A DNA stretch of 64,000 nt from Candidatus Zixiibacteriota bacterium (GTDB lineage: Bacteria; Zixibacteria; MSB-5A5; GN15; FEB-12). The first letter of the stretch is position 1. Each line of letters opens with the position of its first letter. Of this stretch, positions 22,758 to 39,192 are shown piece after piece. The notes beneath the pieces were generated by a model. It worked only from the letters and a program-made list of their open reading frames with translations, was not told the DNA's origin and did not search any database. The stretch is taken from contig JAVEYB010000014.1 in the NCBI GenBank assembly GCA_034003725.1, positions 1 to 64,000 on the forward strand, written 5' to 3'. The translations under genes and the position numbers were made by a program.

Positions 22758-23879
22758 CTACTCAGTGCTTTTCGGTAGCGGTGTCGGATAGTTGGGGTAG
22801 ATACTCCATCTGATGAGTAACTTCCGCAGTTGGAGCAGTTTGTCTCCTCTTACTTCCGTGCGATAATACCCAGCGCGTTCCGTGGGGACCAACGAATCTG
22901 CGATTCGCGATGCCTTTTCGAGCAACTCCGGGTTCGAGAGATCCAGCACAACGTCGTGCAGCGCGGTGTCGGCCCACTGGCGAACAGAGTCCGCGTGCTG
23001 TTTCGCTACCACCTTGAGTTCCTCTTTGGTGTAGCCAACGGACTTGTGGAAGAGGCTGTCACCGGGGGCTCTGAGCCACAGTTCACCGTCAACCATCACA
23101 GCTTGATCGGAACGTCCCTCGAGCGGCTCCTTCTCCAGCTCGCGAAGCTTCTGCATCTCGACTTCGCGGCGGTGCTCGTTGCGGTCCACCTTCTTCTTGG
23201 TACCGTCCTCCAATCGCACCCAGCCGGAGTCGCCGACCGCCCGCAAGGAATCAAAGTGCGCTTTCTGTGCGGCGAGGAAGCGGGTGTGAGCACGAACTTT
23301 GGCCTCTTCGGGAGTGAGTTGACGTCCGTTCTCCGATGGCCAGACTGCTTCGGGAGGCCGGCTCATTAAGCGCTCCATCGCCTCCAGGCGAGCTTTCCAT
23401 TCGCTGGAGTCAGGAATGATCACCTCCTCCCGGGTGTTTACTGCGTAGACGCGGACGTCGTGGGTCCAGACCTCGACCGAATCGGGGCCGGTCACCCAGA
23501 AGCGCCCCGCCCACTGGGGATAGCCGCACGACGACTCGAACTTCATCCAGAAGCCGCAGGTGTCGTTTTCCGGGAGGACGACCGGCAGGTCGATGATCAC
23601 GCTCGGCTCCTGCTCGGTTTTGATCACGGGAAACGTTTTGGGGCCGCTGTAGCCCATGTTGTCGTCGTGGAAAAACTCGGCTGAGATGTCGGTGCAGCCG
23701 GTGGTGTCATAGAGCGTCACGCGGAGCGTGACCGGACCCGGCTGCAGGGCCGGGATGAACTCGTAGGAGTAATAAAAGAAGCGGGGAGGCATCGGCTTGG
23801 CGAACACCGTCCGCGCACCGCAGGTGATCAGCAGCGCGCATGCCAGCGCGGCCGTCAGGACCGAACCAATCTGTCGCAT
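22758..23879 (-). CDS. Secreted protein of unknown function under sigma-54-type promoter (373 aa)
   Basis: ATG at 23879 is preceded by GGAGGGGAGAG and starts a clear signal peptide (MRQIGSVLTAALACALLITC...ARTVFA). The first 150 mature residues are beta-rich with four cysteines (TTGCTD, DTCGFWMKFESSCGYPQW), resembling an immunoglobulin-like domain; the rest is charged and helical, with VEMQKLRELEKEP coiled-coil-like. The upstream 63 codons in frame are not used. It lies about 235 nt downstream of a predicted -24/-12 element (24124-24140) and a palindromic activator site. No family recognised. Confidence 0.65.
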   Translation of the reverse strand: MRQIGSVLTAALACALLITCGARTVFAKPMPPRFFYYSYEFIPALQPGPVTLRVTLYDTTGCTDISAEFFHDDNMGYSGPKTFPVIKTEQEPSVIIDLPVVLPENDTCGFWMKFESSCGYPQWAGRFWVTGPDSVEVWTHDVRVYAVNTREEVIIPDSSEWKARLEAMERLMSRPPEAVWPSENGRQLTPEEAKVRAHTRFLAAQKAHFDSLRAVGDSGWVRLEDGTKKKVDRNEHRREVEMQKLRELEKEPLEGRSDQAVMVDGELWLRAPGDSLFHKSVGYTKEELKVVAKQHADSVRQWADTALHDVVLDLSNPELLEKASRIADSLVPTERAGYYRTEVRGDKLLQLRKLLIRWSIYPNYPTPLPKSTE

Positions 23880-24123: not shown

Positions 24124-24140
24124 TGCAACCGCCGTACCGG
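24124..24140 (-). promoter_or_regulatory. Sigma-54-type promoter of the 373-aa secreted-protein gene
   Basis: On the minus strand: CCGGTACGGCGGTTGCATA. GG (24138-24137) and GC (24126-24125) are exactly 10 bp apart, with TTGCA at -12 matching the RpoN consensus and GGTAC at -24 one base off GGCAC. The activator palindrome begins 99 bp further upstream. Confidence 0.75.
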
Positions 24141-24236: not shown

Positions 24237-24278
24237 GTGCGCGAATTCGCGCAGGAGCATGTGGGGTGCGTCGCGCAG
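24237..24278. promoter_or_regulatory. Palindromic upstream activator site D
   Basis: TGCGCGAATTCGCGCA (24238-24253, perfect palindrome) followed by a second TCGCGCAG half-site at 24271-24278, 24 bp after the first. Same arrangement as four other sites in the window; lies about 100 bp upstream of a -24/-12 element. Confidence 0.8.
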
Positions 24279-24405: not shown

Positions 24406-26553
24406 TCAGAAACTGGCCGGGACCTGCTCTGCGGTATCGATTCCGAATTTGCGGAGGCGGTAGCGAATGGTGGAGTCGCTGACATTGAGGCGGCGGGCCA
24501 TCTCGCGGCGATTTCCCCCGCAGGTGTCGAGCAATTCCAGCAATTCGCGGCGTTCGATATCGGAGCGGTCGCGATCGAGCATATGGGCCATGCGATCGAT
24601 ACTGCCGCGCGATTCGACCCAGAGGCGGCGCACTTCCGCCTGCAGTTCCCGGACGTTTCCCGGCCAGATGCGGGACGACAACACTTTTGCCAGTCGAGCG
24701 ATGTCATGCCGACACCGCACGAGATCACCGTCGGCGCCGTTCAGGCGCAGGAAGTGACCGATCAGCGGCAAGATGTCCTCGGGCCGTGTGCGAAGGGCCG
24801 GGAGGGCGATGGGGATTTCGTTCAGGCGGTGGTAGAGATCGGCACGGAACTTGTTTTGCTGCACGAGCGCGACGATATCGATGTTTGAGGCGGCGATCAG
24901 GCGGAAGTCAACGGCCCGTTCGTTGTTCTCGCCGAGCCTGCGGAGGCGTTTGTTCTCGATGACTTCGAGCAGTTTCGCCTGGACGGCGGGTGTCGTGTCG
25001 GCGATTTCATTGAGATAAAACGTTCCGCCGGCGGCCAGTTCGATCAGGCCCGCGCGGTCGCTTTCGGCGCCGGTGTAGGCGCCGCGTTTGTAGCCGAACA
25101 ACTCGGCCTCGAACATGTTGTCCGGGATCGCGGCGGCGTTGACGGAGACAAACTCGCCGGTCCGCCCGGAGACATGGTGAATCCACCGTGCGATCAAATC
25201 CTTGCCGGTACCGGTCTCTCCGAGCAGGAGGACATTCATGTTCGACGGGGCGACGTACTCGATTTTCTCGAGAATGGTCTGCATGGCCCGGCTCTGGGAG
25301 ACGACAATCGGGGCTTCGCGGTCGGCGGTGGCGGGTTTGGCCCGGTGGGAGGTGAGGGTATGGAGGGCGCGGTCGGTTTTGTCGAGGTACGGCTTGACCT
25401 GCTCCCGCGCGAAATACTCCTTGGCGAGAGTGAGGTGTGCGATAGACTCTGTACTTGTGTATATGCCTGACTCGACGGCGCAGAAACGTGTGACTGCCAA
25501 CTCGTACTGGGCGCCGATCATCGCCAGCATATCGATGGCTTTGCGGAACCACTCGCGGGCGGACTCATACTCACCCCGATAGGCATCGACCTGTCCGAAC
25601 ACCCGGTGACAGGCGGCTATTTCAAGACGTTCGTTTATCTTGGTTGCGACCGCGAGGGCTTCCTCGGCGACAGTTCTCGCCCGGTCATAATCTTTCATGG
25701 CGACATAGACATCGGCGAGGAGGCGTTTGGTTTGGGAGACGAGGGTTGACTCGGGGGCGATCTGCAGAGAGAGTTTGAGCCCTTCGGAGAGATGCTTTTC
25801 GGCTTTGGTGAGATTGCCGCGAAGGGTTTCTAGTTTGCCTTTGACCTCGAGGGCAACCGCATGCTCGCGTGGATGAGACATTAAGCTCTCTGAAACTTCG
25901 TCTAGGTAGCCTCGCGCGCGATCGTACTCGCCGACGAGACACTCGGACAGACTTGCGTTAATAAAGAAATTGGTGACCCCTCTCTCACCCACGTCGAGAA
26001 TCATGGCTTCAAGTTCACCATACAGCTCACGCGCTTCAGCAAACCGCCCTATACGGCAAAGCAGGTGCGCCTTGTTCGCTTTCGCATTCATAGACTTGTC
26101 ACGACTACCAGCTTCGATATGCAACTGCGAAGCTCGATCAAGATTCAGAAGCGCCGTCGATTGGTTGCCAACATGCGTCTCCACAAACGCGAGCAGGTTC
26201 AGCGCACTCGCAGCTTTGGATTTCGAGTTGAGCCTGAGATAGCCAGCGTAAGACTCAACAAGCTGTTCCCTCGCAGCGAGAAAGTCACTTTGCATCGCCA
26301 ATTGCCATCCTTTGACATACTTCGCGCGGGCAAACATTTCGGACTGATCGCCGAATCTGAGCGCTTCAATGGCTTCGTCAATTCGCAGATTCTGACACTC
26401 ACCACTGTGCAAGAGTAGCTCGCTCTCCATGACTATGTAGAGATTCAACAACGGTGAGTCCGGATTTGGCACGCCCTGTGACTTGAGTAGTTGAAGAGCT
26501 TCGCTAAAGTCCTTCGAATCAATCAGCCGCTGAACCTCATCGAATCGTTTCAT
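24406..26553 (-). CDS. TPR-domain sigma-54 activator (bacterial enhancer-binding protein)
   Basis: 715 aa in three parts. Residues 1-400 are about ten TPR-like helix pairs with no receiver, GAF or PAS domain, suggesting control by protein or peptide binding. Residues 413-640 are the AAA+ domain: Walker A GETGTGKD (445-452), the RpoN-contact loop GAYTGA (491-496; Tyr replaces the usual Phe), Walker B TFYLNEI with Asn515 where Asp is normal, and FRADLYHRL with the arginine finger. Residues 670-705 are a Fis-type HTH (GGNRREMARRLNVSDSTIRYRL). The probable binding sites are the five palindromes listed here (inference). Start 26553 overlaps the preceding secreted-protein gene by 17 nt. Confidence 0.85.
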   Translation of the reverse strand: MKRFDEVQRLIDSKDFSEALQLLKSQGVPNPDSPLLNLYIVMESELLLHSGECQNLRIDEAIEALRFGDQSEMFARAKYVKGWQLAMQSDFLAAREQLVESYAGYLRLNSKSKAASALNLLAFVETHVGNQSTALLNLDRASQLHIEAGSRDKSMNAKANKAHLLCRIGRFAEARELYGELEAMILDVGERGVTNFFINASLSECLVGEYDRARGYLDEVSESLMSHPREHAVALEVKGKLETLRGNLTKAEKHLSEGLKLSLQIAPESTLVSQTKRLLADVYVAMKDYDRARTVAEEALAVATKINERLEIAACHRVFGQVDAYRGEYESAREWFRKAIDMLAMIGAQYELAVTRFCAVESGIYTSTESIAHLTLAKEYFAREQVKPYLDKTDRALHTLTSHRAKPATADREAPIVVSQSRAMQTILEKIEYVAPSNMNVLLLGETGTGKDLIARWIHHVSGRTGEFVSVNAAAIPDNMFEAELFGYKRGAYTGAESDRAGLIELAAGGTFYLNEIADTTPAVQAKLLEVIENKRLRRLGENNERAVDFRLIAASNIDIVALVQQNKFRADLYHRLNEIPIALPALRTRPEDILPLIGHFLRLNGADGDLVRCRHDIARLAKVLSSRIWPGNVRELQAEVRRLWVESRGSIDRMAHMLDRDRSDIERRELLELLDTCGGNRREMARRLNVSDSTIRYRLRKFGIDTAEQVPASF

Positions 26554-26839
26554 GAGGGACGCTCTCCGTCGGTGAGGGATAGGAAACAGGCACGAGGAGC
26601 CGCACGATTACATCAAGCCATAGATGTCGCATTGGCTGAATCGCCTCGTGATCGGGTTCGGTAGTCTCCGGACCCACGACTGCAGCGTCGACATTCCAAC
26701 CAGTCTCCTCGCCCTGTGGTTTGTCGGCGCGGTTTTGCAGCTGGTCCATCCACATCGGGCGGCTTCGCGCCGAGACCCCGGGCGCAAAGATGCACACGAG
26801 CATAGCCACCATTACGAGTGCTACACATATCTTCTTCAT
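26537..26839 (-). CDS. Small secreted protein coupled to the activator (100 aa)
   Basis: The signal peptide MKKICVALVMVAMLVCIFAPGVSARS is followed by an 75-residue hydrophilic, Cys-free mature part rich in Pro, Glu and Trp (RPMWMDQLQNRADKPQGEE). GGAAGGGT precedes the ATG at good distance. The stop lies inside the first codons of the TPR activator gene, so translation is coupled. A role as a signal or anti-activator for the TPR domain is an inference from position alone. Confidence 0.6.
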   Translation of the reverse strand: MKKICVALVMVAMLVCIFAPGVSARSRPMWMDQLQNRADKPQGEETGWNVDAAVVGPETTEPDHEAIQPMRHLWLDVIVRLLVPVSYPSPTESVPHETIR

Positions 26840-27379
26840 AACAGAGACCCTTCCGGTCTGGTCGTTAAATCGTCTCTACCGCTCCGGGCCGCCACGACTA
26901 CGCCCCGGGGCGCAATATGCAAAAGCCGACAGTCGCGTGTGAGTCACGCGGTGCGTAAGCGATTCATTTTGTTGCTTGTACGGACCCTTCCCTCGGGCGC
27001 TTCCGCAACGGGTCGGACACAATCAGCCGAGACACACGACCACGGTGCGGGTGGGATTCCGATGTACGATCACGATGCGAGATCACTCCCCGCCGAGTTC
27101 AAACCGCAGGCTCCCCCAGAGACCGGGTTTGAATGTCATTAAACTCACACGCAGAATACGCGGTGTGGCAGGATTTTGTCAAGGCAGAAATTGCGCGCAA
27201 GCTGCTGAAACGTCACGAGATGACTTTCACTGCCGTGACTTGACAGTGGAATTGTTAGAAATAGCGTCGATTTGCGAATAAACTCGCGTGCGGCCGGCTG
27301 TTTGCGAGGGACAGTTTTTGTCACACGGCAGGTAGGCAAAGGGAAGGCGGGTCCGAGGATGGACCCGCCTTGCTGCTGC
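26840..27379. other. Intergenic region with decayed relative of the activator-site region
   Basis: 540 bp without a gene. The stretch 27190-27260 (cgcgcaagctgctgaaacgtcac...cttgacag) is recognisably similar to 34458-34505 beside activator site B, but the palindrome itself has been lost; only TTGCGCGCAA remains at 27191-27200. A hairpin (TTCAAACC...GGTTTGAA, about 27099-27133) and the terminator of the 82-aa gene (27344-27371) are also here. No convincing -24/-12 element was found. Confidence 0.55.
27344..27371 (-). terminator. Terminator after the 82-aa membrane protein
   Basis: AAGGCGGGTCC (27344-27354) pairs with GGACCCGCCTT (27361-27371). On the minus strand it lies just after the stop at 27380 and is followed by CCCTTTGCC. 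Confidence 0.7.
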
Positions 27380-27749: not shown

Positions 27750-28004
27750 TCAACTGGGAAAGTAGTGGAGTATCGCCCACATCACAGCGCCCAGAAGCAC
27801 CGGAAGGACCACCAACCGAACCGGGTTCAGCTTCTCCTTCGGTACAAACGTGAGTTGGGCGAGCAGTGCGCAAATCGCTACGGCGACTCCCCAGCCGATT
27901 GCAGCCTCATTGAATTGCCTTGTGATAATGACGGCTACCGCAACTGCAACGCACATTCCGAGCAGGTGCAGGGCAACCGCACGATTACTGCAGGCAAACG
28001 ACAT
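27750..28004 (-). CDS. Small membrane protein beside the first precursor (84 aa), immunity candidate
   Basis: Two to three hydrophobic helices: VALHLLGMCVAVAVAVIITR, AAIGWGVAVAICALLAQLTF and LVVLPVLLGAVMWAILHYF. ATG 28004 follows AGAGGAGAAGA. It lies 11 nt downstream of the Cys-rich precursor gene. A different small membrane protein sits at the same place after the paralogous precursor (34667-34906), which supports a role paired with the precursor, for instance immunity; this is inference. Confidence 0.55.
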   Translation of the reverse strand: MSFACSNRAVALHLLGMCVAVAVAVIITRQFNEAAIGWGVAVAICALLAQLTFVPKEKLNPVRLVVLPVLLGAVMWAILHYFPS

Positions 28005-28015
28005 GTTCTTCTCCT

Positions 28016-28780
28016 CTATGATTCGGAGCTCCCACCAAATATGGCGTCGATGCCACAAATGATGGCACTCGCACCTGCACTTACACCTACACACTTGAAG
28101 TAGAGGCAGTTTGTAACAGCACAACCCAGAAGAGCGCTGCCGGTGCTCTGACCCAGGCACTTCCAGAATCCGGCAAGGTCGACCGGTTCGGGATCCGGTA
28201 TGAACTCTCCACCAACGAAAGAACCACTTCTCATAACCGCGGCCGTGTCAGTACTCACATCCATCTCCAGAAAGACGCTATTCTTGACGCCGGCGTTGGT
28301 CCAGCGCGTAACGATTGCAGTGTGATTCGCCGGATCGCTGGTCGGGTTCTCAAATGCCGCCCAGAGTATGGTATCCTCCAAGACCCGGACCGGATCATTG
28401 CCAAGAAATGGCTTCCGAGCCGCCTGCGACTCGGCGTCGATGTCGGCCGCTGACTCCGGTTCGGCATTCGTGTACCGTTTCACGAGCACAACGCTGTTGG
28501 TGTCCATGAACGAGTACCCCTGGGCTGTCAGCCATTCATGGGCATCGACCACATCCTCATCGTTCAGCGCCGATGAGATTGCCGAAGTCTTGGTCGGCGA
28601 TTCGTCCAGATACTTGGAGCACACTGTGGCTGTCAAACCATCCGACAATTCTGTGTTCGAAGGTGCGGTGATGTCGTCGGACTGCTGGTTGTCAAACCAG
28701 CTATTACAGCCGATCGTCAGGTTCATCATGGCTACGATAACCATCAGAACCATCCCCCTTGAGATAATCTTACTAAGCAT
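28016..28780 (-). CDS. Lipoprotein-like precursor with Cys-rich hydrophobic tail, paralogue 1
   Basis: 254 aa. The first 26 residues (signal with ISRGMVLMVIVAMMNLTIGC) are almost identical to those of the gene at 34957-35754 and end in a lipobox-like LTIGC. Residues 27-200 are hydrophilic and acidic with no recognised domain. The last 55 residues are hydrophobic and rich in Cys, Gly and Ala: FWKCLGQSTGSALLGC, then NCLYFKCVGVSAGASAIIC, five cysteines in all. A large N-terminal part with a hydrophobic Cys-rich C-terminal peptide recalls halocin C8-type precursors, a resemblance of architecture, not demonstrated homology. Located after the redoxin gene in a sigma-54-type operon. Confidence 0.6.
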   Translation of the reverse strand: MLSKIISRGMVLMVIVAMMNLTIGCNSWFDNQQSDDITAPSNTELSDGLTATVCSKYLDESPTKTSAISSALNDEDVVDAHEWLTAQGYSFMDTNSVVLVKRYTNAEPESAADIDAESQAARKPFLGNDPVRVLEDTILWAAFENPTSDPANHTAIVTRWTNAGVKNSVFLEMDVSTDTAAVMRSGSFVGGEFIPDPEPVDLAGFWKCLGQSTGSALLGCAVTNCLYFKCVGVSAGASAIICGIDAIFGGSSES

Positions 28781-28833
28781 AACAATGCTCCCTTCATAGT
28801 TCGATGCAAGTTGTTTTTTGGGCGAGCGTCCGG

Positions 28834-28858
28834 CGGTCGCACGCTTTCCGTGCGACCG
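28834..28858. other. Conserved hairpin between redoxin and precursor genes
   Basis: CGGTCGCACG (28834-28843) pairs with CGTGCGACCG (28849-28858), next to the redoxin stop. No T-run follows on the minus strand. The hairpin recurs upstream of the second precursor (35807-35832) with a changed loop, so it is conserved by duplication and perhaps function. Confidence 0.7.
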
Positions 28859-29473
28859 TCAGGACCGTTTCGCCAACATCTCGCTCAACCACAAAGCCGC
28901 GCGCTCGAAATCCTCCTGGCTCTCCGGCGTATTGTCGGCCCCCCGGATGTAAACGGCGGTCATGGTTGAGTCGTACAGGATCTTGAACGGCATGAATCGG
29001 GAGGAAATGCCCATCTGCGCAAAAGTCATCGAAGTATCGTCGGCGCCGATCACCAGCGGAATTTCCAGCTCCCAGTCGTCGAGCTGCTGCGCGATCGCGC
29101 TCGAGTCGCGAAGCGTGCAGATCGCCACGATCGACTGCTCGCGTTCTTTGAAGACGGGAAGAAGATTCCGAAAAACGTGCGCTTCGCTCATACTCACCGG
29201 GCAGGTTGTCTCCGAAGAGAGAAACACGGCCAGGGTAAGCGAAGGCACTTCTTCGATTGGGGCGCCGTCGGCGACGATCATCCGGCCGATGCCGGGGTAG
29301 GTGTAGATTCCCCGAAGGTCTTCGTACACTCCCCCGTAGTCGACCAGAAACGACGGCTGCTCGTCCTGCTTCTGAATGACTTCTTTCAGTTGGAAGTTCT
29401 GTATCAGGAGCATGACGTTCAGCACCACCAGGATGACAAACGCAGTCGGGATCATTACCTTTTTCATTCTCAT
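28859..29473 (-). CDS. Membrane-anchored thioredoxin-fold (redoxin) protein
   Basis: 204 aa: N-terminal anchor MIPTAFVILVVLNVMLLI, then a thioredoxin-like domain. SSETTCPVSM (about residue 90) is at the CxxC position, but only the first cysteine remains (CPVS). PFKILYD supplies the loop corresponding to the cis-Pro region. It ends in LWLSEMLAKRS; a remnant encoding WLSEMLARRS occurs upstream of the second precursor. The gene follows the short peptide at 29503 and is likely to act on its disulfide or on the precursor (inference). ATG 29473 follows GAGGTGGAGGTAG. Confidence 0.7.
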   Translation of the reverse strand: MRMKKVMIPTAFVILVVLNVMLLIQNFQLKEVIQKQDEQPSFLVDYGGVYEDLRGIYTYPGIGRMIVADGAPIEEVPSLTLAVFLSSETTCPVSMSEAHVFRNLLPVFKEREQSIVAICTLRDSSAIAQQLDDWELEIPLVIGADDTSMTFAQMGISSRFMPFKILYDSTMTAVYIRGADNTPESQEDFERAALWLSEMLAKRS

Positions 29474-29502
29474 CTACCTCCACCTCGTTCGAGCAATCGC
29501 TG

Positions 29503-29772
29503 TTATTGGGTGTGCACCCCCGCGCTTGACACTGTCAGTTGGGCGTCGCCGATCGGGATTGTCAGACAGTCCGATCCGACTCCCCAGCAGCCGAGGAACG
29601 TGCCCTGCGCATTGAACTGTTTCTTCTTGAGCTTGAGGATGCCAATCGGGAACAGCCGGGCTTCGATCATCGAATGCGAGTCGGTCGTGACCGGCGCGTT
29701 GATCTGGGCGAGATTGGCGGTTACCAGCAGACCGAGAAACAGCCCTGCGATGACACGTTTGGTGCGTGACAC
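29503..29772 (-). CDS. Short secreted peptide with paired cysteines (89 aa)
   Basis: GTG at 29772 is chosen because GAGGTG lies 7 nt upstream; a TTG two codons earlier is too close to it. Signal peptide KRVIAGLFLGLLVTANLA is followed by a mature part of about 65 residues ending GTFLGCWGVGSDCLTIPIGDAQLT with two cysteines. The size, the signal and the late Cys pair recall the NVEALA-type secreted peptides of Bacteroidota, which also neighbour 6-bladed propeller and thioredoxin genes. First gene after a predicted sigma-54-type promoter. Confidence 0.6.
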   Translation of the reverse strand: MSRTKRVIAGLFLGLLVTANLAQINAPVTTDSHSMIEARLFPIGILKLKKKQFNAQGTFLGCWGVGSDCLTIPIGDAQLTVSSAGVHTQ

Positions 29773-29848
29773 AGTCAATCACCTCTTTTCGCGGTTAAGG
29801 ATTGAAGTTACTCTGTCTCAAGTGTCAACGTCGACGTGTTTCCGTATC

Positions 29849-29865
29849 TACAACCTTCGTGCCAA
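29849..29865 (-). promoter_or_regulatory. Sigma-54-type promoter of the 29503 peptide operon
   Basis: On the minus strand: TTGGCACGAAGGTTGTAGA. The -24 box TTGGCACG is a perfect consensus; the -12 box is TTGTA, with T in place of the usual C at the GC position. GG to GT spacing is 10 bp. The activator palindrome starts 101 bp upstream; transcription would start near 29838. Confidence 0.7.
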
Positions 29866-29963
29866 TCACCTATGGATTCGCACTGAAATCGTACAAGAGG
29901 ATGTCGGGGAGAGAGTTGGCGTGTGTGTGATAGATGACGGATAGTGACGTTCGGTTGGTCCAA

Positions 29964-30005
29964 CTGCGCGAATTCGCGCAGTAGACTTTTCGCCGCGTCG
30001 CGCAG
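29964..30005. promoter_or_regulatory. Palindromic upstream activator site A
   Basis: CTGCGCGAATTCGCGCAG (29964-29981, perfect 18-bp palindrome), then TCGCGCAG at 29998-30005, 24 bp after the first half-site. It ends eight bases from the stop of the barrel gene at 30013 and lies 101 bp upstream of the -24 box. Confidence 0.85.
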
Positions 30006-30012
30006 CAAACAT

Positions 30013-32160
30013 TCACATGCTCACCAGATAGCGAACCTTCATCACGAACACCTGCTCCAGCGGCTGATAGGTGTGATCATCGCGGCGCCGCTGATAGTCA
30101 TTGTAAGCAAGGTAGAGCCAGCTTTTCGGCAGGAAATTGTACGCCAGCGACAGCCCCACACGAACCGACCGAATCCCCACACTCCGATATACCGTCGACT
30201 CACCATACGCCCGCATGCTGATGTCCCGTGTGACCGAGTACGAACAGCCGGGGCGAAATCGCCAGGTGATCTCCTCGACAGATCCGCCGGGATCGTTTTC
30301 TATCCAGGCGTCACCGTTGAAGAAGACCGACATTGCCGACTGCGGCTTGAAGCTCGCGTACCAGTCGATATTCCACGACCGGGCGAGATAGTACCGCAGA
30401 TAGTTGAAAGATCGTGATGTACTGACGTTCACTATGAACCAGGCCCGCCGGGAGACGTCGCTTCGCAGAAAGCCCGACCAACTTCGGGGATCATAGCGCA
30501 TGTCCTGTTCGAAGTCTCTCCCCCAGGCATAGGTCAGCCCGGCGCCCCAGTTGCATCGCATGGCCAGCGCCAGGTTGATCGAGTAGCGGCTGGCGTAGAT
30601 TGACTCACCGTACTCGCGGTCGAACTGTGTCCCAAATGCGATCTTCCCGTAGGTCAACAATCCGGACGACGGATATACGGTCGGGCCTGCCGAAGCAGCG
30701 TACGACCGGTAGTCGTACCAGGGGACGAACCCAATATCGGAGACGTCGAAATCGTAGCCGATACTCACTGCGTCGGCTCGTAGTGAAAGCCCGCGCGGCG
30801 TGTAATGAAACGACCCCAACCACGCCCAGTCGTTGTAGTCGTCGTAGCGGCTCCGCGCCACCTGACCGTAGACATCCAGCAGCGCGTTGCTGAGGCCGGC
30901 GTCGACCGAGTAGACATCGTTGTGGTGATCCTGTTCGTACTCACCGGCCTGGAACAGCCCGACCGTCGTTCCGGGAGTCGGATGGACGGTGACGCGATTG
31001 ACCGCGAAGGTGGCGGCCTGCTGCGTCTCGGGACCGTACCAGCCCTCGTAGTCTTCGCTCCCGGTGCGTGCCAGCAGCGTCCCAAACTCCACTCTGGGGA
31101 GCTTGCCGACCAGTCGGCCGCCGGCCTGAATGGGCACCTCGGTCCCGTCCGGAAGTTTCTTGCCAATCGACCGGGAATAGAACAGCGTGAGGAGGCCGGC
31201 CATCGCCCCGCCGGGGGGATCGAAAAACTCCTGTCCTTCGACAAAAAACGGCCGTTTCTCGGAGAAGTAGATCGCATACTTGGAGAGATTCAGCGCGAAT
31301 GGGTCAGCTTCGACCTGTGCGAAATCCGGATAGAAGGTTGTCTGGAGACGCACCGCGGGTGTCAGCGCCCAGTTTATATCGGCTCCCACGCGCACCCGGT
31401 CACTTCGCTCGTTGTAGCTTTTCTCCGCGCGAAAGAACGTAGTGGGCGCCAGTTCGAGTCCGAGGTTTCGGTCTGCCGGCGCCACTCCTTCGAGCCGCCC
31501 GAACCCTGAGACGGATAACGCTTCGTTCTGTTTAACAGGGACGGCGTATCCGACCTCGCCCTGCTTTGGAATCTTCCGCTCAAGATTAAAGCCCCAGGCC
31601 GGCGCGCCTTTGTCGAACTGCAGACTCGACCATGGAATCGCCATTTCAACAATGAAGATGCCCGTATCGACGTAGACCGCCGACTCAAACACCCCGTCCC
31701 AGGTGATATTCTCCTCCCGTCCATTGGCGGAGAGCACCGCATCCGATTGCACGTTGCCACAGGACACAGTGAACCGATAGGCGGTCTGACGGTCGAAAAA
31801 CGTATCGAGAAACAACGACACCTCGTCGCCGCTCCTGCTCTCACGCGTCTCTCGACGGCAGTCCGGATACCTGTTCGGCGTCTTGCATTTGAAGGCTATG
31901 TAGAGGGCCCGGCTGTCCTGAAGTATGTAGACGGTGGTTGGCTCCGACAGCGGCAGGCCTTCGTCCGGGGTTACCTGCACGAACGACGTTACGGAGTCGC
32001 CGGTACGCCAGCACAGATCGAGAAGGCCGTCGATCTCCGGTGCAGCAGTAACGGTCGTCACACGATATGAAAGCTGATCATCGGAAGCGAGTGCGGCGAG
32101 CCATAGCATGAGTAGAAGTGCGGCGCACCTCGCCAGTGTTTTACAAGTTCGCCACAGCAT
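30013..32160 (-). CDS. Outer-membrane barrel with CBM9-like N-terminal domain (DUF5916 family)
   Basis: 715 aa. ATG 32160 overlaps the TlpA-like gene by 20 nt and starts a signal peptide (LARCAALLLMLWLAALA). Residues about 30-210 resemble the family 9 carbohydrate-binding module (APEIDGLLDLCW, ALYIAFKC, EVSLFLDTFFDRQTAYRF, FIVEMAIPWSSL). KYAIYFSEKRPFFVEGQEFFDPP and the beta-strand-rich remainder ending VFVMKVRYLVSM match DUF5916 outer-membrane proteins. It closes the peptide-propeller-TlpA operon and could be the outer-membrane exit or receptor for its products (inference). Confidence 0.8.
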   Translation of the reverse strand: MLWRTCKTLARCAALLLMLWLAALASDDQLSYRVTTVTAAPEIDGLLDLCWRTGDSVTSFVQVTPDEGLPLSEPTTVYILQDSRALYIAFKCKTPNRYPDCRRETRESRSGDEVSLFLDTFFDRQTAYRFTVSCGNVQSDAVLSANGREENITWDGVFESAVYVDTGIFIVEMAIPWSSLQFDKGAPAWGFNLERKIPKQGEVGYAVPVKQNEALSVSGFGRLEGVAPADRNLGLELAPTTFFRAEKSYNERSDRVRVGADINWALTPAVRLQTTFYPDFAQVEADPFALNLSKYAIYFSEKRPFFVEGQEFFDPPGGAMAGLLTLFYSRSIGKKLPDGTEVPIQAGGRLVGKLPRVEFGTLLARTGSEDYEGWYGPETQQAATFAVNRVTVHPTPGTTVGLFQAGEYEQDHHNDVYSVDAGLSNALLDVYGQVARSRYDDYNDWAWLGSFHYTPRGLSLRADAVSIGYDFDVSDIGFVPWYDYRSYAASAGPTVYPSSGLLTYGKIAFGTQFDREYGESIYASRYSINLALAMRCNWGAGLTYAWGRDFEQDMRYDPRSWSGFLRSDVSRRAWFIVNVSTSRSFNYLRYYLARSWNIDWYASFKPQSAMSVFFNGDAWIENDPGGSVEEITWRFRPGCSYSVTRDISMRAYGESTVYRSVGIRSVRVGLSLAYNFLPKSWLYLAYNDYQRRRDDHTYQPLEQVFVMKVRYLVSM

Positions 32161-32695
32161 AACCCAGATCCCTCCAGAAACGCTCGCGTTCTTCCCCCGG
32201 GCTCCTGGGCGGGTCCGCCCACTGAATTCGTGCTGTCGAGTCAACCAGCACCTTCAGCGGCGTGACTCGAAAGTTCATCTCCCTCTCGAGCCAGCCTGTC
32301 GTATCAAGATACGCTTGAATTCCCCATTCAGTGTTGTCCACCCATTGAAAGAATTCGGGCGCGTTGGTGTGCGTGCCTACACCGTACACGGCGGCGTCAC
32401 CGCGCCGGACAACTTCATTCCACAGCTCCGATTCGCTGAAGCAGGGCGGGCAATCGGATGGTGCGAAAAAGACAAACATGGTGTGCCCGTGTCTTGCCGC
32501 GATCTCCCGCAGGGAGACGGAGTCTCCATCTCGATCTACAACCGTCATATCAGGGAGTCGAATTGCGCCGACATACGTATCGGCGGGAGCAATGACAGCT
32601 ACCGCTGATTCGCGGGCGTGTTTCAACTGGACGATCAGCGCGATGTTGGCGACAGCGAGGACCGCGATGATGGTGATGCTCCAACCCTTGCGCAT
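32141..32695 (-). CDS. TlpA-like membrane-anchored thioredoxin
   Basis: 184 aa: signal anchor ITIIAVLAVANIALIV, then a thioredoxin fold with active site SDCPPC and the cis-Pro loop VTPLKVLVD. Unlike the relative at 28859 both cysteines are present, so reductase or isomerase activity in the periplasm is expected. The gene starts two bases after the propeller gene and overlaps the barrel gene, indicating one transcript from the promoter at 34307-34322. Its likely substrates are the Cys-containing peptides of the operon (inference). Confidence 0.82.
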   Translation of the reverse strand: MRKGWSITIIAVLAVANIALIVQLKHARESAVAVIAPADTYVGAIRLPDMTVVDRDGDSVSLREIAARHGHTMFVFFAPSDCPPCFSESELWNEVVRRGDAAVYGVGTHTNAPEFFQWVDNTEWGIQAYLDTTGWLEREMNFRVTPLKVLVDSTARIQWADPPRSPGEERERFWRDLGYAVANL

Positions 32696-32697
32696 AG

Positions 32698-33804
32698 CTA
32701 CCTCCCAACCGTGCAGGACGCGCGGACCAGGTCGCTCCCGTCGACGCTCAACAGAAAAACCGAGCCGTCGTCGCAGGCTCCCACCGGCCAGTAGTCGGAG
32801 TAGATCGCGTCGCCGAGATGTTGTCCCTCACGGGAGAACACGTCGATCACAAACCGCGACGTGCACCCCGGGACAAACCCGTTGGCTTCAGCAACTCGAA
32901 TCAGTCGACCGTCGGCGAGTCGAACCAGCTTCACTATGCGCGTCCACGAAGTGAGGTGTCCTTCGGGCGGGCTGTCGTAGTCGCCTTTGATTCGCAGCAT
33001 CTCGTGCGGCCCAACCCACCAATCGGGCCGATCTCCGATCGTGCCGGTCAGTTTGCCGTTTCTGTCGAAGATATAAATCGTCGGGTCGACTGAAAACACG
33101 ACAAAGGTGTTGCCCTGTTCGTCGGTCTCGACCGAGGATGACACGCCGGTCCACAGTCTTTTCGAGAACGCGATATCGGGCGTGTAGGCGTACGCCTGCA
33201 GCCACTTGCCGGTTGTGTCGACCACATTGCAGTAGAAGCCCGCGTTGATGTCCTGCGGGTCGCTCATGACCAGGCATGACAGCAGCAGTGTATCCGGTCC
33301 GAGCAGGTCGCAATCCCAGGGCGTATCCATATCCGGAGGGAGCAGAAAACTGAATCGGAACGCTTCGTCGGCATCGAATACTGACACCCGCCTGCTGCCG
33401 GCATCGCTGACAAACAGGTTACCATCGCCGGTCCAGACAACGGCGCTGGGAAGGTTGACGTCGCCGGGATATGCGCCCTGAGCTGCAATGCGATCAACGT
33501 TCTGCGAGGGCACATAGGCCTCGAGTTCGGCGGTCTCGCTGAACGAGACATGGGTGGCCTGGGAGGTGTGACGCGCGACCGATTTCACGACCTCATCGCG
33601 GAGATCCATGACGCATACTTCATGGCGAGCCAGATCGATAAACGCGGCTTTCGTGCCTTCACGATTGACCGACCAGAACGAGTAGAAGGTCCACTCTCGT
33701 TCAGCAGAGACCTGGAAATCGGGCGGAATGGACCATCTCTCTTCGGCCACAAATGTCGAATCGGTTGCGAGTACAGCCGTCATTATTAGCAAAACCGTAA
33801 ACAT
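32698..33804 (-). CDS. 6-bladed beta-propeller secreted protein
   Basis: 368 aa. The signal peptide (MFTVLLIMTAVLA) is followed by repeats of NHL/6-bladed-propeller type, best seen in LPSAVVWTGDGNLFVSDAGSRRVSVFDAD and VETDEQGNTFVVFSVDPTIYIFDRNGKL. AAGGAGGG precedes ATG 33804. In Bacteroidota such propellers commonly neighbour short NVEALA-type secreted peptides, as is the case here. It is probably periplasmic or surface-exposed and may bind the peptide (inference). Confidence 0.8.
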   Translation of the reverse strand: MFTVLLIMTAVLATDSTFVAEERWSIPPDFQVSAEREWTFYSFWSVNREGTKAAFIDLARHEVCVMDLRDEVVKSVARHTSQATHVSFSETAELEAYVPSQNVDRIAAQGAYPGDVNLPSAVVWTGDGNLFVSDAGSRRVSVFDADEAFRFSFLLPPDMDTPWDCDLLGPDTLLLSCLVMSDPQDINAGFYCNVVDTTGKWLQAYAYTPDIAFSKRLWTGVSSSVETDEQGNTFVVFSVDPTIYIFDRNGKLTGTIGDRPDWWVGPHEMLRIKGDYDSPPEGHLTSWTRIVKLVRLADGRLIRVAEANGFVPGCTSRFVIDVFSREGQHLGDAIYSDYWPVGACDDGSVFLLSVDGSDLVRASCTVGR

Positions 33805-33830
33805 GATTTCCCTCCTTACTTGAAGGTCGC

Positions 33831-33856
33831 CGACGCCTCCCGCGGAGAGGCGCCGG
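33831..33856 (-). other. Hairpin between peptide and propeller genes (possible attenuator)
   Basis: CGCCTC (33834-33839) pairs with GAGGCG (33847-33852) and can be extended. It lies between the 69-aa peptide gene and its downstream operon partner, with no T-run, so it might stabilise the peptide message or attenuate read-through. Confidence 0.4.
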
Positions 33857-33948
33857 ACGACATCGGTTGCAACTGACTCGATATTAGGCCGCCGATCCAG
33901 GAGCGTTGCGCGGCCATATCCACGTCGCAGCTATCTCACGCGGTCCGG

Positions 33949-34158
33949 CTACGACTCGTTGTTGTACTGACAAACACACGGTCCCGTGTCCTTTGGACAC
34001 ATGCAGCCGACGATTTGACCGCCCTGGATCAATTGATCTCCGGCAGAGAACTGGACTTTCGGCTTTCGAACGTCGGCTTTCGCAAACAGCGCCGTGCCGT
34101 TGAGCGCCGCAAAGGCGCAGACAAGACAGACAATCGCGATGCATTTGATGGACTTCAT
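33949..34158 (-). CDS. Short secreted peptide with four cysteines (69 aa)
   Basis: ATG 34158 follows AAAGGGGGTGATG. Signal peptide MKSIKCIAIVCLVCAFAALNGTALFA, then a mature part of about 43 residues that ends GCMCPKDTGPCVCQYNNES. The double CxC (CMC, CVC) flanking Pro/Gly is unlike the peptide at 29503, but size, signal and position at the head of an operon are the same. A member of the NVEALA-like or another short-peptide class is a guess; no sequence homology could be established. Confidence 0.6.
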   Translation of the reverse strand: MKSIKCIAIVCLVCAFAALNGTALFAKADVRKPKVQFSAGDQLIQGGQIVGCMCPKDTGPCVCQYNNES

Positions 34159-34306
34159 GACATCACCCCCTTTCACAACCGGAGTGGAACAAGTCTGGTC
34201 GTGGCAGTTCGGCAAGAGGTAGTTTCGAGCTGAATCGAAACGTGACCGCCCAAACTTGATGAAGAACAACTCGCGTGAAGCTCCACATGTATCAGTGTGT
34301 TCGCAA

Positions 34307-34322
34307 TACAACTTTCGTGCCG
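34307..34322 (-). promoter_or_regulatory. Sigma-54-type promoter of the peptide-propeller-TlpA-barrel operon
   Basis: On the minus strand: CGGCACGAAAGTTGTATTG. GG at 34321-34320, GT at 34309-34308, 10 bp apart; -24 GGCACG matches consensus, -12 is TTGTA as in the promoter at 29849. The palindrome begins exactly 101 bp upstream (34422). Confidence 0.7.
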
Positions 34323-34421
34323 ATCGCCCATGGATTTACACAGAATTCGTACAAGCGGATGTTGGGTATGGAGTTGGAGTGTGTGTGACGGATGACGGAC
34401 ACTGACGTTCAGTGGTGTCTC

Positions 34422-34463
34422 CTGCGCGAATTCGCGCAGCAAACCCCTCGCCGCGTCGCGCAG
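34422..34463. promoter_or_regulatory. Palindromic upstream activator site B
   Basis: CTGCGCGAATTCGCGCAG at 34422-34439 and TCGCGCAG at 34456-34463, 24 bp after the first half-site. Identical core to sites A and C. Confidence 0.85.
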
Positions 34464-34601
34464 GCAGAAACGTCATGTGGTGACTCGTACTGCCACACTT
34501 TGACAGGTGAAAGGCGAAAAAAGTCGTAGATTGGATGAGATTTCAAGACGTGGGCATGGAGCGTCGTTGACAGTTTGTGACGCGGGATCGTATTTGAGCA
34601 A

Positions 34602-34631
34602 CAGACCCCGCCTGTGGTGGGGCGGGGTCTG
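34602..34631 (-). terminator. Terminator after the 79-aa membrane-protein gene
   Basis: CAGACCCCGCC (34602-34612) pairs with GGCGGGGTCTG (34621-34631). On the minus strand it lies downstream of the stop at 34667 and is followed by TTGCTCAAAT. Confidence 0.75.
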
Positions 34632-34666
34632 TCGGCGATGAAATAGTTATCGCACGTCGGTACGGT

Positions 34667-34906
34667 CTACTGATTCCTGACGGTTTTTTCGTGTTTGTCA
34701 TCGCGGCCGAGTGCCCATTGGAAGAGCAGCGCGGTTACCAAGCCGAGGCCGAACGATATCAGATTCCAGGCCAGTGCGGGAATGAACTCCCCGCCGCTTG
34801 CAGCTCCAGTCGAGAATCCAAGCCCGAGACCGACGGCGAGGCCGATCCCGATCCAGGAACCCGCACTAATGGGCTTCTTACTTGTGTCGGCGGCATTTTT
34901 GCTCAT
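34667..34906 (-). CDS. Small Gly-rich membrane protein beside the second precursor (79 aa), immunity candidate
   Basis: Two hydrophobic segments: WIGIGLAVGLGLGFSTGAASGG and FIPALAWNLISFGLGLVTALLFQW, with charged ends (MSKNAADTSKK, GRDDKHEKTVRNQ). It follows the precursor gene by 50 nt and precedes a terminator. Position equals that of the 84-aa membrane protein after the first precursor, although the sequences differ. A pairing with the precursor, such as immunity or export, is inferred. Confidence 0.55.
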   Translation of the reverse strand: MSKNAADTSKKPISAGSWIGIGLAVGLGLGFSTGAASGGEFIPALAWNLISFGLGLVTALLFQWALGRDDKHEKTVRNQ

Positions 34907-34956
34907 ACGCTACTCCTCATTTGAACCAGTTTGCTACACTGGCTGCCCATATTCCA

Positions 34957-35754
34957 TCATCCGAATACCTTGAATGCACATTTGACAGCGGCATAGATAG
35001 CCCCTGCCGCACAGCCGAGCGCGACGCATTTCGGGTACCCCGGGCCCGTGGCACCGCAGACTATCAAGGCACCAACACACGGCCATGCTGCTTCTCGACG
35101 AACACAGTCGAGGTACTTGAATATCTGCGCATCGAGCGTTGCAGCATTGCCGTCACGCCCGCTCATCGCTCGTGCCGGATAGACTGCTGCCGGGTAGTCA
35201 AACTGCCAAACGCCGTCCGTCACTCCAGCCCACCCCTGCTGACCGCTCGGATAGACAAACGACAGCAAGTAGGGTGAGATGACGCGACCGTACTCGCAAT
35301 CGATGACATCGACATACGCAGCTTTCTCGGTCGTGTCAGCAGCATAGACGAACGCCACTGTAATCCGGTTGACGAAAACGGAGTCGGTCCCGTCGTCAGA
35401 TACCGCGTACAGCGACTGGGCAAACGAGTACGTACGAGAGAAACGATACCCATTAGTATAGAAGCTATCGACGATCGCCTCGATTCTCGGCATCTGAAGC
35501 GCTCCGATCAGGGGATCATCCCCCGGCTCGATGTACTCGTCGGTCCCGACAATAGCATCGCGCCAGCCGTCCTGGAGGAAGTCGTTGATGGCTGAATGCT
35601 CGGCTGCCGATGTCTGAGAGACCTTGTCAGTTTCGGTGGCAGTCGGTTGAACCGAATCTGTCGGTGCGGTGTGGTGGTTGCAGCCGATCGTGAGGTTCAT
35701 CATGGCCACGATAACCATCAGAACCATCCCCCGTGAAATAGTTTTATGAAACAT
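34957..35754 (-). CDS. Lipoprotein-like precursor with Cys-rich hydrophobic tail, paralogue 2
   Basis: 265 aa. Signal MFHKTISRGMVLMVIVAMMN...LTIGC matches that of 28016-28780 at 22 or so of 26 positions, and the DNA is likewise conserved there, but the middle domain differs (about residues 30-215, mixed alpha/beta, no family recognised). The last 50 residues are hydrophobic with six cysteines: DCVRREAAWPCVGALIVC, GYPKCVALGC, AAVKC. The YxKCV segment aligns with YFKCV of paralogue 1. First gene after a consensus sigma-54-type promoter, with a leader of about 200 nt containing a gene remnant. Confidence 0.6.
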   Translation of the reverse strand: MFHKTISRGMVLMVIVAMMNLTIGCNHHTAPTDSVQPTATETDKVSQTSAAEHSAINDFLQDGWRDAIVGTDEYIEPGDDPLIGALQMPRIEAIVDSFYTNGYRFSRTYSFAQSLYAVSDDGTDSVFVNRITVAFVYAADTTEKAAYVDVIDCEYGRVISPYLLSFVYPSGQQGWAGVTDGVWQFDYPAAVYPARAMSGRDGNAATLDAQIFKYLDCVRREAAWPCVGALIVCGATGPGYPKCVALGCAAGAIYAAVKCAFKVFG

Positions 35755-35833
35755 AACATTGGTCCTTTCGCAGTGCGATGCAAGTGTTTTTTGGGCAAGC
35801 GCCCGACGGTCGCACGCGCAGACCGTGCGACTG

Positions 35834-35915
35834 TCAGGACCGCCTCGCTAACATTTCGCTCAACCACGGAACCGTGCGTCCACAGTCTGCGTGAACCGCC
35901 GGCGTACTCGTGATT
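35834..35915 (-). pseudogene. Remnant of a second redoxin gene 3' end
   Basis: Read on the minus strand, 35866-35834 encodes WLSEMLARRS followed by a stop, against WLSEMLAKRS-stop at the end of the intact redoxin (28859). Similarity of the DNA continues upstream (ccggcgta... segment) to about 35915, with the reading frame lost. The conserved hairpin follows in the same order as in the intact locus. Confidence 0.75.
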
Positions 35916-35966
35916 GATCGTTACAACAATGATCTCTCGAGCGTCAACGTTGACTGCGCGGCGTAA

Positions 35967-35982
35967 AGCAACAGATGTGCCG
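35967..35982 (-). promoter_or_regulatory. Sigma-54-type promoter of precursor 2 operon
   Basis: On the minus strand: CCGGCACATCTGTTGCTTT. GG (35981-35980), N10, GC (35969-35968), with GGCAC and TTGCT: the closest match to the RpoN consensus in the window. The palindrome begins 101 bp upstream. Confidence 0.85.
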
Positions 35983-36081
35983 GACTCTGATGATGTGGTG
36001 TGAAAAAGACCGAAGGAGTTACGCTTTAACGGGTTAGTGTTGTATCACCAAGGTGTGTGACTACAGTGCAGGAGGGGTTTG

Positions 36082-36123
36082 CTGCGCGAATTCGCGCAGT
36101 AAACCTCTCGCCGCGTCGCGCAG
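36082..36123. promoter_or_regulatory. Palindromic upstream activator site C
   Basis: CTGCGCGAATTCGCGCAG at 36082-36099 and TCGCGCAG at 36116-36123; 24-bp half-site spacing as in sites A, B and D. Confidence 0.85.
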
Positions 36124-36203
36124 CAGCAAAACTGTCTAGTGAAAAGTCGGTGGGCCGGCAGAGTGTGGTCTCGGCGCGTGTGCAAAAGCAGGGGATATAA
36201 ACC

Positions 36204-37058
36204 TCAGTCGGTTTTCATACTGACGAGATAGTCGTCTTTTCCGCTTATGACGGCCACCGCGGGTTCGCAGTCGTAGCAGATCGTGATATACAGGCGGACC
36301 GTGCTTTCGACCGGGTGGCCGTTGACTATTCTTGCCTTGTAGTCGTAGCGGAAGACAATCGCATCCTCGGTTACCGATCTGAATCCCCGGCCGGGGGGCT
36401 GTTCACTGATGAACTGATATGATATCGTTTCATCTTCGTGAATGGTGATATCGACGACGACATAGCCGGTGTCGCTTCGGTGAGCGGTCATCGGCCAGAA
36501 GATATTGCTGACCGCAATCATGGCGCATCGATCATGACCGCGTAAAATCAGGTCGGGTTCGCTCGCAGCGGGGAGATCGAAACGGGCTGCGACCGGCAGC
36601 AGCCAGTTCTCTGCGGGCAGGCCGAAGTCGGTGTCGCCGCCCGAACCGTCACCGTCACCGGCCTGCGCGTATATCACGGCGGGATCACCCAGTTCGAATC
36701 CAGGGAGAGGGGACAGTGGTTGGTCGTTCGGGATAGTCAGAGTCAGGGAGACGCGCGGCGTATCGGGGATGATTCTGATGCTTGCCAGCAATCCTCCTGC
36801 GAACACGGCGTGTGCGCGCTCGCCGGCAGTCGGCGCAGTGTGCCGTCCCGGGCCGCCGCTGCGAAAGCCTGTCGGCAGCGTTGGTTCGCTAACGGTGAAG
36901 CGAACCAACGTGGATGGTCCGGGCCCGAAACACAGGCTGCCGATCACAACGGCGACGACGCTTGAAATGGTGACGATCAGCAGGCTGATCGCCATATTGC
37001 GCTGATAGGAGCGTTTGTGGTCCAGTCCCAGGTATCGCCAATGACCTTGCGATTGCAC
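36204..37058 (-). CDS. TonB-family energy transducer
   Basis: GTG at 37058 is preceded by GGAGGG at the right distance and gives 284 aa; an in-frame ATG at 37106 lacks one. A short cytoplasmic part is followed by the anchor MAISLLIVTISSVVAVVIGSL and a periplasmic linker. The last 80 residues resemble the TonB C-terminal domain: GYVVVDITIHEDETIS, PPGRGFRSVTEDAI, YKARIVNGHPVESTVRLYITICY. It would couple inner-membrane energy to an outer-membrane receptor; no ExbB/ExbD is nearby. Last gene of the operon from the promoter at 38975. Confidence 0.75.
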   Translation of the reverse strand: MQSQGHWRYLGLDHKRSYQRNMAISLLIVTISSVVAVVIGSLCFGPGPSTLVRFTVSEPTLPTGFRSGGPGRHTAPTAGERAHAVFAGGLLASIRIIPDTPRVSLTLTIPNDQPLSPLPGFELGDPAVIYAQAGDGDGSGGDTDFGLPAENWLLPVAARFDLPAASEPDLILRGHDRCAMIAVSNIFWPMTAHRSDTGYVVVDITIHEDETISYQFISEQPPGRGFRSVTEDAIVFRYDYKARIVNGHPVESTVRLYITICYDCEPAVAVISGKDDYLVSMKTD

Positions 37059-37151
37059 TTTTGCGACTCCCTCCACGTACGACGAGCCCACTGTCCCGAT
37101 TCTCATACCGCGAGTTACGCGGCAGCGGCAGGACACGAGGGTATGGTGAAC

Positions 37152-37391: not shown

Positions 37392-37525
37392 CCTGAACTC
37401 CTTTCAAGAAGATCCGCTTTCTGATTCCGTTCGGGATTGATTCCTATATCCCCCGCGAAGATTCCGATGGCAGTTCCTCCCTGTATAGAAGTTATCGGCA
37501 CCTACGAGGCCGAACTGACGGCGCC

Positions 37526-38142: not shown

Positions 38143-38871
38143 CTACTCAAACATCCAAATATCGATCAGATGCAGCAGGCCAAACACCGCACCCGCCACC
38201 CAGTAGCCTTCGCGTCCGCGAAACGAAAACACGCGCTGCATTCCGGAACCGACCACGACAGCCTGCCACACCAGCGGAAGACTGATAGTGAGCAGAAACA
38301 ATTCGTAGAAGTCTCCTGGGCGGCCGCCCAGAGCGAGGACAATCGGACGGAGACTGATTTCAATGGAGGTCGTTCGGGTGAGCAGTATCAGGGGAAGCAG
38401 GAGGTACGCGCAGAGGATTGCGATGGTTTCGCCCAGGATAGCCACATACAGGATTCTCGAGAAGGTGCGCGGCGCGGAAAGCGAGCCGGGGTGGCTGACA
38501 CCGATCGGGCCGGCGCCTTCGGCTGAACCGGTCAGCCGTGCGACGAACAGCGCCGCTCCCCACAGAAGGGCTGCGGTGAGAAGCGGTTTTATAATTGGAG
38601 AGATAATCCCCATCAACACCGTGAGAATCTCGATGAATCGGGCGGCCTGTGCGGTATCAATCGGCTGGCGGTCCAGGTACGCCGTTTTCGCCGCAAGGAA
38701 TGTTTGGGCTTCGATTCGACAGGTAAGCAGCGCGAACACCAGTGAGAGCAGAATCAGGGCAGTCCAGAGCGCGCGGGTGTGGGGTCGGTTGTGGAGCGCG
38801 TGGAGTACGAAGGGATCGACGACGAATGTGGCGACGCTCGGGTTCACCGATTGGGCGCTCTCTCGATGCAT
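38143..38871 (-). CDS. Yip1-like multi-span membrane protein (242 aa)
   Basis: Five hydrophobic segments, starting after a 35-residue cytoplasmic part with FVLHALHNRP. The FSRILYVAILGETIAILCAYLLLPL and WVAGAVFGLLHLIDIWMF segments, together with the overall size, resemble Yip1-domain proteins, a weak family assignment. GAGGGGCTGTCC precedes ATG 38871. First gene of the operon under promoter E, followed 17 nt later by the anchored 199-aa protein. Confidence 0.55.
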   Translation of the reverse strand: MHRESAQSVNPSVATFVVDPFVLHALHNRPHTRALWTALILLSLVFALLTCRIEAQTFLAAKTAYLDRQPIDTAQAARFIEILTVLMGIISPIIKPLLTAALLWGAALFVARLTGSAEGAGPIGVSHPGSLSAPRTFSRILYVAILGETIAILCAYLLLPLILLTRTTSIEISLRPIVLALGGRPGDFYELFLLTISLPLVWQAVVVGSGMQRVFSFRGREGYWVAGAVFGLLHLIDIWMFE

Positions 38872-38974: not shown

Positions 38975-38990
38975 AACAACTTCAGTGCCG
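38975..38990 (-). promoter_or_regulatory. Sigma-54-type promoter of the Yip1-like/peptide/TonB operon
   Basis: On the minus strand: CCGGCACTGAAGTTGTTTA. GG (38989-38988), N10, GT (38977-38976). The -24 box GGCAC matches; the -12 box is TTGTT. The activator palindrome begins 98-99 bp upstream. Confidence 0.65.
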
Positions 38991-39086: not shown

Positions 39087-39192
39087 GTGCGCGAATTCGC
39101 GCAGGTGCCGCGCGGAAATTCGCGCAGCTATCGGAAGCTATGGTGCGACAAGAGGATAAAGCCGCGCTATTTCGCGCAGCATTTTCGCGCAG
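39087..39192. promoter_or_regulatory. Clustered activator site E (four half-sites)
   Basis: TGCGCGAATTCGCGCA palindrome (39088-39103), then TCGCGCAG half-sites at 39120-39127, 39172-39179 and 39185-39192. The second is preceded by GCGCGGAAAT, making an imperfect palindrome. More half-sites than at any other site in the window. Confidence 0.8.

Follow-up and report, generated by a model that had tools for sequence, protein, structure and literature searches.

The locus raises the question of what is sensed by a predicted sigma54 activator composed of TPR repeats, an AAA+ domain and a Fis-type helix-turn-helix, and whether such a protein is active with an unusual ATP site. The gene of this activator (P0001), identified from its open reading frame and Pfam matches, occupies positions 24406..26553 on the minus strand of the window, i.e., of the whole analyzed stretch of 64,000 nucleotides, begins with ATG and encodes 715 aa. 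The Pfam models found in the protein are Sigma54_activat (4.2e-59, residues 418–582), the AAA lid, HTH_8, corresponding to a DNA-binding helix-turn-helix at residues 664–703 (24445..24564, minus strand), and TPR models; no receiver, PAS, GAF or other phosphorylation domain was found with Pfam. The Walker A lysine K451, the switch Asn472, the Walker B Glu516, the R-hand RxDxxxR (R570-D572-R576) and sensor II (R635) are retained. The host genome (3.73 Mb) encodes rpoN (Sigma54_DBD, 6e-58) and more than 20 other sigma54 activators, none of which lies on the same 78-kb contig.

A search for related loci with the activator protein as a single query gave no matches. In comparison with the nearest orthologue, dN/dS is about 0.15 for the AAA+ and HTH part (dN 0.17, dS 1.15), about 0.28 for the TPR part and about 0.27 for the secreted peptide encoded next to it; by these values, the AAA+ and HTH part is under strong purifying selection. 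Orthologues are 32–64% identical, and both Asn515 of the Walker B motif and the overlap of the activator gene with the secreted-protein ORF are conserved in many of them; together with the dN/dS values, this argues that neither feature is due to chance.

The proposed peptide-binding sensor is represented by a TPR superhelix, residues 1–408 (25330..26553, minus strand). The AlphaFold2 model of this part (pLDDT 93) is an all-helical repeat with 22 helices in residues 2–405, corresponding to about ten TPR-like pairs, so that Pfam and the model agree with the preliminary description, in which a TPR sensor without a phosphorylation domain had been recognized. The solved folds closest to the model in VIA-align are pheromone-bound Rap (Z 29.9), MalT domain III (28.6), RapF–PhrF (28.1) and NprR (27.8), with 338–348 residues aligned to Rap and NprR at 9–12% identity. 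Taken alone, the fold match is weak, since Z values of 22–28 are also reached by further TPR superhelices, LGN and APC/C among them. No RRNPP receptor was among the phmmer matches of the whole activator against all PDB chains. Asn119 and Asn160, which occupy corresponding positions in consecutive repeats, are invariant in 36 of 36 proteins from two subfamilies. RRNPP receptors grip the peptide backbone by a strictly conserved Asn, N227 in RapF (PMC3601957), of which Asn119 and Asn160 are at most candidate structural counterparts. The earlier idea that the sensor would bind a peptide or protein directly thus gains support from the predicted Rap-, MalT- and NprR-like fold and from the invariant Asn residues.

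A candidate ligand is the HPW-type small secreted protein of 100 aa with the core GEETGWNVD (26537..26839, minus strand), the gene of which overlaps the activator start by 17 nt. The pair is preceded by a sigma70-like promoter, TTGACA-18-TATTCT (27153..27182, minus strand), called by consensus match only; identical hexamers and spacing are present in the same-genus genome G053 (L074, 6361–6392). In orthologues, the HPW ORFs share little overall similarity and a common plan, namely, a signal peptide (called by a simple rule of charge and hydrophobicity, with no dedicated predictor), an acidic Trp core, then a stretch of moderate hydrophobicity, and a tail of polar residues. The consensus core is roughly D/E-x-H/G-P/G-W-x-D/E, with HPWGD, GSWVD and DSGWGE among its variants; the core found in the window, EETGWN, deviates from HPW, and the Trp is conserved in 34 of 35 aligned proteins. 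At 36 TPR-activator loci the small secreted ORF ends between −73 and +71 nt from the activator start, and no HPW motif was found upstream of 53 non-TPR activators.

The strongest test of the pairing, at the level of sequence, was a motif-first search of the phylum: 30 DHPW DNA matches were obtained, ten of them in unrelated ORFs and 20 in small ORFs with signal peptides, and all 20 of the latter directly precede a TPR activator, the alignable part of which begins about 90–300 nt downstream of the motif. Partners of the sister subfamily (activators of about 751 residues) have the core DHPWGG[DE], and those of a third subfamily (about 980 residues) DHPWDD/DG. All three TPR activators seen in the host genome have an HPW-type ORF, one with the variant AEHAWD. 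HPW ORFs are absent from the clade of orthologues L043, L077, L042 and L061, mostly of the Asp type; at least two of these four lie downstream of a groEL-type ORF (similar to the groEL C-terminus). The preliminary description had coupled the neighbouring secreted protein to the activator, and this claim is strengthened: as judged from gene order and motif conservation, the secreted HPW protein and the TPR activator are a previously unnoticed gene pair, widely conserved in many genera.

No family for the HPW proteins was found in Pfam and NCBIfam; stray single matches, including AimP and PhrA at E of about 0.08, were taken as signal-peptide noise. In 14 genomes of other phyla no HPW secreted ORFs were recognized, the examined DNA matches except L367 being unrelated ORFs. 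The motif was not found in relevant papers of the literature searched, where the single text match was an unrelated letter string. Several loci contain more than one core: three tandem HPW-type secreted ORFs stand directly before one Asn-type TPR activator (L362, 1423–2647), a second HPW-type ORF precedes in tandem the same-genus orthologue (L074, 6706–7026; cores ETGW and SGW), and a secreted ORF with five core repeats, HPWGD, HPWVD, HPWND, HPWGE and TPWGD, resembling a multi-copy signal precursor, is located 5 kb from a TPR activator (L078, 8058–8426; the same DNA as L363, 5059–5427).

The composition of the HPW proteins bears on an alternative that we regard as unlikely, in which the protein, instead of returning to the cell as a ligand, serves as a sensor or anti-activator in the periplasm or at the membrane, with the motif outside, and with the second hydrophobic stretch and the polar tail touching the TPR part inside and holding or releasing the activator. 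Such a geometry agrees with the make-up of the HPW ORFs, every one of which has a signal peptide and, past the motif, a second stretch of moderate hydrophobicity; most also have a polar tail of 11–46 residues. In most cases, however, this second stretch is not hydrophobic enough to form a transmembrane helix (17-residue Kyte–Doolittle mean of 0.55–2.4, mostly 1–1.5), and the precursor-like ORF with five repeats fits a released signal better.

It is improbable, too, that the secreted ORF is a mere co-expressed product or a translation-coupling leader while the TPR part senses something else. Overlaps of 10–70 nt with the activator gene in many orthologues do fit translational coupling, but a leader does not account well for the conservation of the Trp core, in variants particular to each subfamily (HPWGG, HPWDD and HPWQD), among several groups of receptors, for purifying selection on the secreted ORF at the protein level, or for the tandem copies and repeats.

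The second part of the question concerns the ATP site. Placed by motif position, Walker A GETGTGKD (residues 445–452; 25198..25221, minus strand) carries D452 where most activators have Glu, and Walker B FYLNEI (residues 512–517) carries Asn515 (codon 25009..25011, minus strand), correctly numbered in the preliminary description. The other activators tabulated from the host genome have Asp at the Walker B position. Among 25 sampled orthologue loci of the same family-level group, Asn is found in 17 and Asp in 8, and the tree of these loci requires five changes; each of 500 shuffles required more. Within this sample, Asn is the commonest state of the clade, and Asn and Asp interchange repeatedly; the distribution is consistent with Asn515 being ancestral with later reversions to Asp, the direction being unproven.

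Beyond the clade, a strict DNA pattern for the Asn type (GA[FY]TxA plus an N-E Walker B), checked on the window, had matches in 54 of 132 genomes from the phylum, and the reversed control had none. In a named genome collection, it was found in at least 117 stretches, which belong to several phyla; Zixibacteria, Desulfomonile, Bacteroidales, Elusimicrobia, Planctomycetota and others are represented among the stretches listed. In one 5.6-Mb Desulfomonile genome (G132, L084), 62 Sigma54_activat matches, a large expansion, were found, with several Asn-type members on separate contigs. The sensor domains of the 54 Asn-type proteins scanned include 26 receivers, 15 PAS and 7 TPR, and hence the Walker B Asn is not tied to TPR sensing; a survey of this residue, as earlier proposed for TPR-containing activators, shows it to be widespread. 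When the Asn and Asp types were compared at 76 further positions of the core, they differed most strongly at the residue after the Walker A Lys, which is Asp or Asn in 103 of 112 Asn-type proteins among the matches listed, versus Asp in 3 and Glu in 25 of 29 Asp-type proteins of the same class. The association (Fisher 5e-17, uncorrected for kinship) was not significant in a tree-corrected test, in which 2.3 pairs ran in the same direction and 0.1 in the opposite one and independent pairs were few. Asn515 is not an oddity particular to this activator, and, from the orthologue counts, the scans of the phylum and the collection, and purifying selection, we reject the idea of a private or decaying mutation. 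A PspF-like protein of a Symbiopectobacterium endosymbiont (L104) has an NE Walker B with canonical GKE and a short frame; this gene may be decaying, rather than a functional Asn type.

For the residue of PspF equivalent to D452, Glu43, the change E43D leaves a Vmax of 22 versus 39.5 per min, and D107A nearly abolishes hydrolysis, with a Vmax of 0.23 versus 39.5 per min, about 0.6% (PMC3419264). A measurement of the Asp-to-Asn change (D107N) was not found in the literature searched. The D107A value would agree with a reading half suggested by the preliminary description, in which Asn515 cripples hydrolysis and leaves the activator as a switch or decoy that binds ATP. So would PspF E108Q, which hydrolyzes ATP slowly and binds it tightly, and still remodels promoters opened beforehand (PMC4132715). 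We give this reading little probability, since Asn recurs in many lineages with the other catalytic motifs intact and a matched Walker A change, interchanges with Asp within the clade and stands in an AAA+ domain under strong purifying selection. Rather than a defect, the site, with D452 and Asn515 instead of GKE and Asp, is a recurrent natural GKD/NE variant that is probably active. It has one carboxylate fewer near Mg and preserves the R-fingers and the catalytic Glu516, so that ATP should still be hydrolyzed, perhaps with retuned activity.

The sigma54-contacting loop is represented by GAYTGA (residues 491–496; 25066..25083, minus strand, by motif position) instead of the usual GAFTGA, as the preliminary description had correctly read. 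Its Tyr493 is likewise no peculiarity of this activator: GAYTGA is a documented variant of the loop, found in other activators, including 17 of 130 Asn-type and 3 of 71 Asp-type sequences compared, and a reconstruction of the Clostridiales sigma54 regulon, which treats such variants as functional, suggests that they still activate (PMC6615313).

Candidate binding sites of the activator were found in the form of a perfect palindrome, TGCGCGAATTCGCGCA, six copies of which are present in the 3.73-Mb genome, five of them within 15 kb of the activator gene. Sigma54-like sites were located by a position-weight scan at 24139, 29864, 34322 and 35982, and each has a palindrome about 100 bp upstream. 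The first proposed enhancer, UAS 1 (24238..24253), lies 98 bp from the −24/−12 site CGGTACGGCGGTTGCA (24124..24139, minus strand), behind which is the gene of a secreted protein (proposed target 1; 22758..23879, minus strand). UAS 2 (29965..29980) lies 100 bp from TGGCACGAAGGTTGTA (29849..29864, minus strand), followed by the gene of a 91-aa secreted peptide (target 2; 29503..29778, minus strand) and then by genes of a thioredoxin-like protein (28859–29473) and a lipoprotein with a Cys-rich C-terminus (28016–28780). UAS 3 (34423..34438) and CGGCACGAAAGTTGTA (34307..34322, minus strand), 100 bp apart, precede the gene of a 69-aa Cys-rich secreted peptide (target 3; 33949..34158, minus strand), with genes of an NHL-type propeller, a redoxin and DUF5916 behind it. 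A lipoprotein with a Cys-rich C-terminus (target 4; 34957..35754, minus strand) is preceded by UAS 4 (36083..36098) and, 100 bp from it, CGGCACATCTGTTGCT (35967..35982, minus strand), and a membrane protein (target 5; 38143..38871, minus strand) by UAS 5 (39088..39103) and, 97 bp from it, CGGCACTGAAGTTGTT (38975..38990, minus strand). The UAS elements have no strand.

At up to 3 mismatches, the palindrome has 7 matches in the window; none of 100 shuffles gave more than 4. The same-genus genome G053 has three exact palindromes, all located within 10 kb of the orthologous activator gene, and in the same-genus genome G052 (92% complete) no exact palindrome and no activator orthologue were found. 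A sigma54 −24/−12 site 97–101 bp downstream, on one strand, accompanies all nine palindromes (six in the host genome and three in G053), which are not fully independent, several of the regions being related to each other. The pattern used to count sigma54 sites was itself derived from these sites, which makes that count circular; the weight lies on the spacing and on the number of palindromes. The corresponding null is 0.9% per random place, and such a site was found for 0 of 8 near-match orientations in G052. A blind search near more distant orthologues for repeated palindromes (at least 3 copies) with sigma54 sites recovered only the G053 set; therefore, the enhancer looks genus-specific. 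The palindromes, the sigma54 sites and the genes behind them appear, from these positions, to form a local regulon of the activator, to which the palindrome is assigned only by proximity and by presence and absence. That another regulator binds the palindromes as mere neighbours of the activator is improbable: the genome does encode more than 20 other activators and binding by this one is a prediction, but the 78-kb contig contains no other sigma54 activator, and the palindromes cluster at the G053 orthologue and lack exact copies in G052.

The region 27750–39000 of the window contains genes of short secreted Cys-containing peptides (33949–34158, 29503–29778 and 37152–37391), to which no family was assigned, as well as of lipoproteins with Cys-rich C-termini, thioredoxin-like proteins and an NHL-type propeller. 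This cluster is possibly a peptide-product locus.

On balance, we incline modestly to the view that the activator is the receptor half of a two-gene sensory unit with an HPW ligand, a palindromic enhancer, a sigma54 output and a variant ATP site. The processed HPW protein, or a fragment of it re-entering the cell, would bind the concave surface of the TPR part and change the hexamer state of the activator; its HTH would bind the palindromes, the GAYTGA loops would engage sigma54 at the −24/−12 sites, and ATP hydrolysis would open the promoters of the local secreted-protein cluster.

Similar to NtrC/PspF-type activators (PF00158 and HTH_8), the protein has the AAA+ core, GA[FY]TGA, R-hand, sensor II, lid and Fis HTH, with an enhancer predicted about 100 bp upstream of −24/−12 promoters. 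It differs from them in sensing by a TPR superhelix without receiver, PAS or GAF domains, in the combination of Walker A GKD with Walker B NE, and in the secreted partner gene that nearly always stands alongside. With the RRNPP(A) receptors of Firmicutes and phages (Rap, NprR, PlcR and AimR) it shares a cytoplasmic TPR superhelix of closely similar predicted shape, a propeptide gene for secretion next to that of the receptor, the occurrence of several paralogous pairs in one genome and, possibly, the invariant TPR Asn residues, while detectable sequence similarity is lacking, the output is a sigma54 AAA+ domain, the phylum is Gram-negative, and the propeptide gene is upstream and overlapping and encodes about 85–140 aa, with the HPW core in its interior. 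MalT domain III shows the same TPR fold within a transcription activator; MalT, unlike the activator described here, is a STAND ATPase sensing maltotriose and is not known to have a partner peptide. From this comparison, the pair is most likely an RRNPP-like peptide-receptor system with a sigma54 output, the ligand step of which we infer; it would work like RRNPP and yet does not belong to that family, since the test for homology at the sequence level was negative.

More tentatively, and short of what we would call probable, a form of peptide signalling unrelated in sequence to RRNPP might operate in this Gram-negative phylum, with HPW propeptide families, each with its own TPR sigma54 activator, often with the GKD/NE site, and a genus-level palindromic enhancer over a cluster of secreted Cys-rich peptides. 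The idea is testable, since the DNA itself gives the receptor, the proposed ligand, the enhancer with its promoters, and the genes under their control in this reading. The recurrent GKD and NE site provides natural material for asking about the role of the Walker B Asp in AAA+ activators. If the proposed reading is true, transcription control by peptide and receptor in the RRNPP style would have evolved independently, with a sigma54 output, in a phylum that does not belong to the Firmicutes and for which metagenomes are nearly the only source of knowledge.
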